A stretch of DNA of 45,758 nt from Nitrospinota bacterium (GTDB lineage Bacteria; Nitrospinota; Nitrospinia; Nitrospinales; VA-1). The stretch covers positions 1-45,758 of the forward strand of contig WAHY01000015.1 in assembly GCA_009873635.1 (NCBI GenBank). The letters are read 5' to 3'. The translations under genes were made by a program, and so were the position numbers. The notes beneath the pieces were generated by a model. It did not search any database. It was not told the DNA's origin and was given only the letters and a program-made list of their open reading frames with translations. Of this stretch, positions 20,579 to 21,982 are shown piece after piece (position 1 is the first letter of the stretch; each line of letters begins with the position of its first letter).

Positions 20579-20788
20579 ATCGGTCTTAGGGTTAATAGGC
20601 ATACCAATTAAACTTAGCTAGCCAAAGAAGCATGGCTTTGTTGGAATCATTTGCAATCCTATTCTGGCCCATGCTACATTTCTCAAAGAATATAAGATAA
20701 TACATAATAGCTTTTGCTGAAAAAGGGATATCGTGTACCTGTCATTCCTCATAATTTGAGGGATTAAGCCTTAATAGAGAGTAAAATA

Positions 20789-21529
20789 TTGAGTGTTTCA
20801 CCCAAAATTCAACTTGAGCAATTAATCCTACTGCAAAAAATGGATAATGATATTGCCGAGCACAGAAAACTCCTTGCTGATATCCCTGTTCAGATTGATT
20901 CTGGACTTGCGGAATTAGAAGAGAAGAAGAAGGTTCTTTCAAACGCTAAAGAAGAAATAGAAAATCTACAAAAAAATCGTAAGGATATTGAGTTAGAGGT
21001 TCAGGGTGAAAATGATCATATGGCTAAAGCCAAGACGAAGCTGCCAGCTGTAAAAACCAACAAAGAATATACGGCCATTCTTGCCGAAGTGGAAACGATT
21101 AAAGAAAAAGTAGCGGGGCTGGAAGATAAAGAACTTGAAATAATGGAAATTCTGGAAGAAAAACAAAAAGAGATTCCGGCAATTGAAAAAAAATGTAAGG
21201 AAGAGGATTCTCATTTTCAGGAATACAAAGCGAAAAAAGATGCTGAGCTTGAAAGGATGAAAAAGGAGTTGGATTCGCTGTTAGCCAAGCGTGATAGCGT
21301 CACAGATCAGATCGATAAGGTGATGGTACAAAGATATGAAAAACTGGTTAAAGCCCGTGATGGTCAAGCTGTAGTTTTGTTGCGCGAAAATGTTTGCCAG
21401 GGTTGTTTTCAGCAGGTTCTACCGCAAATGGTGATTAATGTTAAAGTTGGCGAATCGATTCAGCAGTGTTCAAACTGTATGTGTTTTTTATATTGGGAAG
21501 AAGTATCTGAAGCCGCAACGCCGAAGTAA
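20789..21529 (+). CDS. Coiled-coil zinc-ribbon protein (C4-type, CdsZ-like)
   Basis: This is a 246-residue protein made of a long antiparallel coiled coil (residues about 10-195, rich in Glu and Lys, with KTNKEYTAILAEVE in the middle) and a C-terminal zinc ribbon. The ribbon has CQGCFQQVLPQ and, about 25 residues on, CSNCMCFLYW. This architecture is shared by the widespread C4-type zinc-ribbon family found next to the RNase P RNA gene in many bacteria, as here. Its function is poorly known; nucleic-acid binding is a reasonable guess. The start is a TTG at 20789. Its last codons and stop lie inside the 5' P1 strand of rnpB. Confidence 0.85.
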   Translation: MSVSPKIQLEQLILLQKMDNDIAEHRKLLADIPVQIDSGLAELEEKKKVLSNAKEEIENLQKNRKDIELEVQGENDHMAKAKTKLPAVKTNKEYTAILAEVETIKEKVAGLEDKELEIMEILEEKQKEIPAIEKKCKEEDSHFQEYKAKKDAELERMKKELDSLLAKRDSVTDQIDKVMVQRYEKLVKARDGQAVVLLRENVCQGCFQQVLPQMVINVKVGESIQQCSNCMCFLYWEEVSEAATPK

Positions 21530-21897
21530 ACCGGGTGACCGCTGTTTCGGTTTTATAACCGGGAGAGAGGAAAGTCCGGGCTCCACAGGGCAGGATACTC
21601 CGTAACGCGGAGTGAGGGCGACCTTAAGGAAAGTGCCACAGAAAATATACGGCCTACCCGGCTTTGTGCCGGCGGCAAAGGTGAAAAGGCGAGGTAAGAG
21701 CTCACCAGTATCGTTGGTGACAGCGGTAGCTTGGTAAACCCTATCCGGAGCAAGATCAAATAGGAAAGTGCTTGAGGGCGGCCCGTCCGAAACTTTCGGG
21801 TTGATTGCTTGAGCCTGTTGGTAACAGCAGGCCTAGATTAATGGTCACCGCTTCATGTTTCATGAAGTACAAAACCCGGCTTATGGTTTGCTTCGGC
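21520..21897 (+). ncRNA. rnpB: RNase P RNA (type A), rnpB
   Basis: This is the catalytic RNA of RNase P, which matures tRNA 5' ends. The universal cores are present: GAGGAAAGTCCGGGCTCC, ACAGAAAATATACGGCC, a GGTAAACCC block, and the 3' ACAAAACCCGGCTTAT. End pairing fixes the limits. P1 is formed by CCGAAGTAAACC (21521-21532) with GGTTTGCTTCGG (21885-21896), extended by one G-C pair. P2 is formed by GGTGACC (21534-21540) with GGTCACC (21843-21849). By this structure the RNA begins about 10 bases before the end of the upstream coding sequence. The 5' end must therefore come from processing of a read-through transcript or from a promoter inside that gene. Confidence 0.95.
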
Positions 21898-21982
21898 TTA
21901 TCGGCAACTACCGCCTTCCTTGCCAAATGCAGAATCCGGATGGTTTTCCGGGCTGAATGCAATTAAGTTTAATCCCTGCCTT

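Follow-up and report, generated by a model that had tools for sequence, protein, structure and literature searches.

RNase P RNA is the ribozyme that trims tRNAs. In the stretch of DNA analysed here (the window, 45,758 nucleotides, from a group of marine bacteria) it begins inside the upstream gene for a zinc-ribbon protein, and the stop codon of that gene is also bases 5-7 of the ribozyme. By sequence comparison, this overlap of protein and RNA on one strand is real, well conserved and double-coding. We propose, with a probability of roughly 0.7, that gene and RNA form one transcription unit and that the RNA is cut from the 3' part of the mRNA.

The RNase P RNA starts within the zinc-ribbon gene

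The features of the locus are:
20789..21529, + strand: CT398-like coiled-coil and zinc-ribbon protein, 246 aa (ORF list and Pfam)
21520..21532, + strand: P1 5' strand (21523-21532, P1 of the Rfam model; 21520-21522, extension)
21523-21898, + strand: RNase P RNA, class A, with the limits given by Rfam (RF00010, full model 1-367)
21527..21529, + strand: stop codon TAA of the zinc-ribbon gene, RNA bases 5-7 (sequence; covariation with the P1 3' strand)
21885..21897, + strand: P1 3' strand with extension (sequence, pair covariation and fold)

The protein, whose TTG start is the choice of the ORF caller, matches the coiled-coil hairpin domain PF24481 (53.9 bits, cut-off 27), and its C4 zinc ribbon (PF02591) scores 21.3 bits, below the cut-off of 29.1. 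The four cysteines C203, C206, C227 and C230 are invariant in 17 aligned relatives, and relatives with solved structures in the PDB are CT398, HP0958 and msmeg_4306. The RNA matches the covariance model over its full length with 318.4 bits (gathering score 100). Its first base lies 7 bases before the end of the gene, which reads ..ACG CCG AAG TAA. An earlier note had claimed from the letters alone that the RNA begins inside the upstream coding sequence; the Rfam limits set against the ORF end at 21529 bear this out.

The 13-pair P1 helix described in that note is also found, 21520-21532 pairing with 21885-21897. Rfam P1 comprises the inner 10 pairs (21523-21532 with 21885-21894) and the outer three pairs are an extension. 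The only G-U pair, 21527 with 21890, involves the first base of the TAA stop. The note had placed the last three codons and the stop in P1; the stop does lie there, together with CCG, AAG and the last base of ACG, so that two whole sense codons are included rather than three. The helix is present in the unconstrained minimum-energy fold of 21500-21920, a fold with an energy z of -4.62 that was matched by none of 100 shuffled sequences. Across 40 RNAs of the order it forms 96.3% standard pairs, compared with 22-48% in slid versions. Both sides have changed in six pairs of the helix, where shuffles that ignore relatedness give 2.0 (sd 1.1; 0/500 as high). The count of further pair types in the helix was not above that of shuffles in these RNAs (328/500 as high); on the other four of the five measures it stands apart from the shuffled and slid versions.

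The last codons serve both protein and RNA

The bases shared by gene and helix are constrained twice over, as had been suggested. Among the 35 overlapping loci of the order, the second-last codon is CCG (Pro) in 33 and TCG in two, and the last is AAG (Lys) in 34 and GAG in one. The frequency of identical codons for these two positions is 1.00, where 0.26 and 0.50 are expected. In 579 pairs of loci with less than 80% protein identity, the ratio of this frequency to its expectation is 2.04 for codons 241-246, as compared with 0.98-1.23 in the other 24 windows of codons. Covariation of P1 with the end of the gene, which the note had named as a check, was observed: the stop codon varies together with the opposite strand of P1. 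Bases 5-7 and their partners read TAA/UUA in 26 of the 40 RNAs (four of which come from loci where gene and RNA do not overlap), TAG/CUA in three, TGA/UCA in three, TAA/UUG, with a G-U pair, in five and TAA/UCA, with an A-C mismatch, in three. At least three changes of the stop codon are needed on the tree. An essential ribozyme that carries the stop codon of a protein in its first bases, with compensatory change through an order, gives a clear example of double coding in nature.

Conservation, gain and loss of the overlap

The order (Nitrospinales, relatives of Nitrospina) was sampled with 64 genomes, 47 of which gave a match to RNase P RNA. Four matches were fragments only (G007, G045, G059, G061) and three loci had too little upstream sequence (L009, L016, L046), which leaves 40 that show both the gene and the start of P1. 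The stop codon lies at RNA bases 5-7 in 35 of these 40, so the overlap is not an artefact of a single assembly. For L062 and L063, where the Rfam match starts at model position 20, the position of the stop was read from the sequence. The 40 rows used for the codon-pair and helix analyses differ slightly: L054, L062 and L063 have no 3' end and are absent, whereas L009, L016 and L046 are included, as are the loci L006, L008, L010 and L036, which have no overlap. In the 35 overlapping loci the protein continues for 14 to 22 residues beyond the final cysteine of the zinc ribbon, so changes in the length of this tail preserved the frame.

A rapidly built tree of the protein (LG+G4; long branches were flagged) requires four changes of overlap state. 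These are consistent with a single gain at the order's base (SH-aLRT 96), with two losses inside the order, one in a genus of four loci and the other in L036, and with an independent gain in L042, which belongs to the same class. In all, the overlap was lost from five loci of the order and so is not indispensable. L054, one of them, has CAA at RNA bases 5-7, and in L036 a similar protein tail can be read in another frame. The gene end ..PAVPK is kept in L008 and L010 about 35 bases upstream of P1, and it looks as if the old P1 start was duplicated when the overlap was lost. GC-rich, palindrome-like flanks lengthen P1 by about 12 pairs in L006. In the class relatives L018, L034 and L053, which also lack the overlap, the spacer between gene and rnpB is filled with short repeats that are unlike in sequence, for example agcaatgag or tagactctta.

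Genes that end within RNase P RNA in other groups

An Rfam scan of a distant set of 40 zinc-ribbon loci (L115-L155 minus L140 and L151, plus L112) placed rnpB downstream in 22. A tRNA lies upstream of the gene in 35, within 400 bases in 27; none was found before the gene in the 7 loci of the order that were scanned. In these distant relatives rnpB often follows the zinc-ribbon gene, in many cases behind an RNase HI gene. In ten of the 22 rnpB loci an ORF of 100 aa or more lies upstream and has its stop inside the RNA; the stop occupies bases 5-7 in L137 and L149 (zinc ribbon) and in L116 (RNase HI).

A wider survey covered 111 loci, 100 from other families taken from the best-scoring matches listed and 11 from the earlier sets; most second members of a family were skipped and a few families are represented twice. 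An ORF of at least 90 aa crosses the RNA start in 19. Pfam was run on 14 of them (L177, L203, L218, L219 and L226 were left out) and assigned a family to 12: eight RNase HI, two CT398 zinc ribbon and two RsfS, the last two from a single family. The ORFs of L156 and L225 matched no Pfam family. Two of the 12, L217 and L242, overlap the RNA by no more than 2-3 bases, a distance that the error of the Rfam limits could account for. Some of the surveyed overlap ORFs stop in P1 and others at about base 69-96. Those of L033, L134, L144, L167, L173 and L213 pass P1 and run into the RNase P core (bases about 69-96); they encode RNase HI, but RsfS in L167 and L173, and have ribozyme-encoded tails such as EESPGSTGQGGG. 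Because the overlaps are spread over groups, a repeated origin seems likely, aided by stop triplets that RNase P RNA contains.

This bears on what the overlap means. On balance we lean slightly towards a frozen accident without regulatory meaning, in which the spacer disappeared on a single occasion, P1 by chance offered a stop in frame, and both were then preserved by compensatory change, with transcription and processing of the ordinary kind. Stop triplets do occur in P1 of non-overlapping relatives (GGAGTAG in L052), and the repeated origins elsewhere and the two losses within the order fit the same picture. The long persistence of the overlap through the order and the recurring element upstream of the gene (see below) suggest a unit that was kept, though not a regulatory role. 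A frozen accident concerns meaning only and is compatible with a single transcript.

Promoter-like sites before and within the gene

Candidate promoters were scored with approximate -35/-10 matrices, after a program scan had found 3 sites where shuffles gave 4.0, an uninformative result; matrix scores with controls were used in its place. Counts refer to 33 overlapping loci, L062 and L063 being excluded, unless stated otherwise. In the search for a promoter inside the gene, which the earlier note had proposed, no candidate fitted a start at RNA base 1: a score of at least 5 for such a start was reached in 0 of the 33 loci, whereas 8 of 18 non-overlapping loci of other groups reached it. None of the 4 scored loci of the order without overlap did so either, so the missing promoter at base 1 is not tied to the overlap itself. 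Within the order, the best score in the 60 bases upstream is at least 8 for 26 of 30 tmRNA genes and 13 of 30 SRP RNA genes, as against 3 of 33 for rnpB; the modest count for SRP RNA weakens this contrast.

One further site was found upstream of the gene:
20651..20680, + strand: promoter-like element, TTGCAA (20651-20656), TG (20672-20673) and TACATT (20675-20680) (recurrence before the zinc-ribbon gene)

Scores before the zinc-ribbon gene are at least 8 in 34 of 35 loci, and the best site begins with TTGC in 30 of the 35. Its common form is TTGCAW, 17-18 bases and TAMATT, with TG two bases before TAMATT. A regular expression for the element, composed after the element had been seen, matches upstream of the gene in 31 of 40 loci and nowhere in the remaining 121,561 nt of the same strand. 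In the genome of the window (2.62 Mb) it has a single match, 20651-20680, and a reversed control pattern also has one. Since the pattern is no rarer than its control, the evidence is recurrence through the order and not rarity. The element, with an extended -10 (TTGCAW..TGMTAMATT), is kept across genera and the leader behind it varies in length.

Alternatively, the RNA could be transcribed from a promoter of its own within the coding sequence of the zinc-ribbon protein, with a position that varies by genus (near -188 or -34, for example). Message and ribozyme would then be separate transcripts and the overlap mere gene packing. We regard this as unlikely, although position -188 speaks for it, with a mean score over the 33 loci of 2.10 where the maximum of synonymous shuffles was 0.67 (sd 0.36; 0/60 as high, in shuffles that ignore, and so break, relatedness). 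Scores of at least 6 occur at -188 in 11 of the 33 loci and at -34 in 10, and the window has TATATT at -34. However, the best scores per locus inside the gene show no excess (48/60 synonymous shuffles as high). The -188 site also falls on a Tyr codon that is nearly invariant (TAT 23, TAC 11; 86 and 77 for all Tyr codons of the alignment), and synonymous constraint at codons 181-190 does not stand out (ratio 1.22, as compared with 0.98-1.23 elsewhere). An RNA 5' end made from such a site would still need trimming. A conserved promoter within the gene is thus supported neither by synonymous constraint nor by an excess over shuffles, the doubtful site at -188 aside. It is very improbable that the RNA really begins only after 21530, with another P1 and hence no overlap: we found no evidence in favour of this, and both the full-length Rfam match, which includes P1, and the changes on both P1 strands speak against it.

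Pairing beyond P1 and a model for maturation

Pairing between the end of the gene and the 3' flank of the RNA continues outside P1. At pair -3 the 40 RNAs have G-C in 29, A-U in four, no pair in six and one gap; at pair -2 they have C-G in 32, U-A in two, G-C in one and no pair in five. A possible outer stem, supported by the fold and by comparison within the genus, consists of:
21512..21515, + strand: 5' half GCCG, within the gene
21902..21905, + strand: 3' half CGGC

It reads GCCG/CGGC in six of seven loci of the window's genus and ACCG/CGGT in the seventh, L035. Over the 33 overlapping loci, flank pairing outside P1 averages 3.33 positions compared with 2.70 (sd 0.12) when partners are permuted without regard to relatedness (0/5000 as high). 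It reaches 9 positions in L024 and L040 and spans 0-3 in one genus. An RNA begun at base 1 would miss the 5' bases of these flank pairs, and the pairing lends indirect support to a 5' end cut out of the message.

The conserved, doubly constrained overlap, the flank pairing, the failure to find a promoter-like site suited to a start at base 1, and the element that recurs upstream together point to a single transcription unit. In this model the upstream element would be a promoter, with transcription starting at about 20687 and running through the RNA to give a bicistronic transcript of roughly 1.2 kb with the RNase P RNA as its 3' part. The 5' strand of P1 would supply the stop codon of the protein. 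The extended P1 stem would form between the last codons of the gene and the 3' flank of the RNA, and an endonucleolytic cut near its base would yield the mature 5' end. A cut at RNA base 1 would part the coding sequence from its stop codon. More generally, as a cut at 21520-21523 falls upstream of the stop, the mRNA part would probably be left as a non-stop message. A ribosome that ends translation at 21527 would, by the general size of its footprint, cover the 5' strand of P1, so translation and folding of the RNA would be expected to compete. The suggestion in the earlier note that mRNA and ribozyme from one transcript exclude each other is plausible: were the RNA released by cutting of the message, exclusion would follow from the geometry.

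tmRNA scores over its cut-off in 43 of the 64 genomes of the order, including that of the window. A more speculative and rather doubtful extension would link translation, RNase P supply and ribosome rescue in one switch: production of the ribozyme would leave a non-stop mRNA, while a finishing ribosome would hold P1 open and delay the ribozyme. Comparable links may have evolved independently where RNase HI, RsfS or other zinc-ribbon genes reach their ends within the RNA. If the ribozyme is indeed released from the mRNA by a cut, the message must be damaged whenever the RNA matures, and a link of translation to RNase P supply can be tested directly. Shared transcription may also explain the frequent position of zinc-ribbon or RNase HI genes ahead of rnpB. 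For annotators, the practical point is that the 5' end of rnpB can fall inside a gene.

Comparison with known systems

Canonical bacterial rnpB, as for M1 RNA of E. coli, has its own promoter. Like M1 RNA, the RNA described here belongs to class A and matches the model over its full length in the ordinary way; unlike E. coli rnpB, it has no promoter-like site that fits base 1, and it overlaps a gene in P1. A search over titles and the openings of abstracts, with subscription journals mostly outside it, returned no account of an rnpB that starts inside a gene, which is weak evidence of novelty. A similar arrangement is seen in other phyla, where the gene before rnpB, for RNase HI, a zinc-ribbon protein or RsfS, likewise ends within the RNA (in L137, L149 and L116 at the same bases 5-7); otherwise the genes involved and the places of the overlap differ from those of the order. 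In the rpmH-rnpA pair, as outlined in PMC10941002, an RNase P component is likewise co-transcribed with or close to another gene, but this is the gene of the protein subunit and the pair is without overlap in an RNA helix.

Stable non-coding RNAs at the 3' end of an mRNA, made from one promoter and released by a cut near the stop codon, are known as small RNAs cut by RNase E, with OppZ and CarZ of Vibrio cholerae (PMC7398697) and a cleavage map of Salmonella (PMC5222698) as sources, and we infer the same arrangement here. According to these sources, stop codons are enriched for RNase E sites in Salmonella (PMC5222698) and only mildly so in V. cholerae (PMC7398697). Unlike the small RNAs cut by RNase E, the RNA of the present locus is a ribozyme essential to the cell and contains the stop codon, upstream of which a cut would be made. 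Messages that end in a non-coding RNA are a known kind of arrangement, and what may be new here is that the RNA overlaps the gene.
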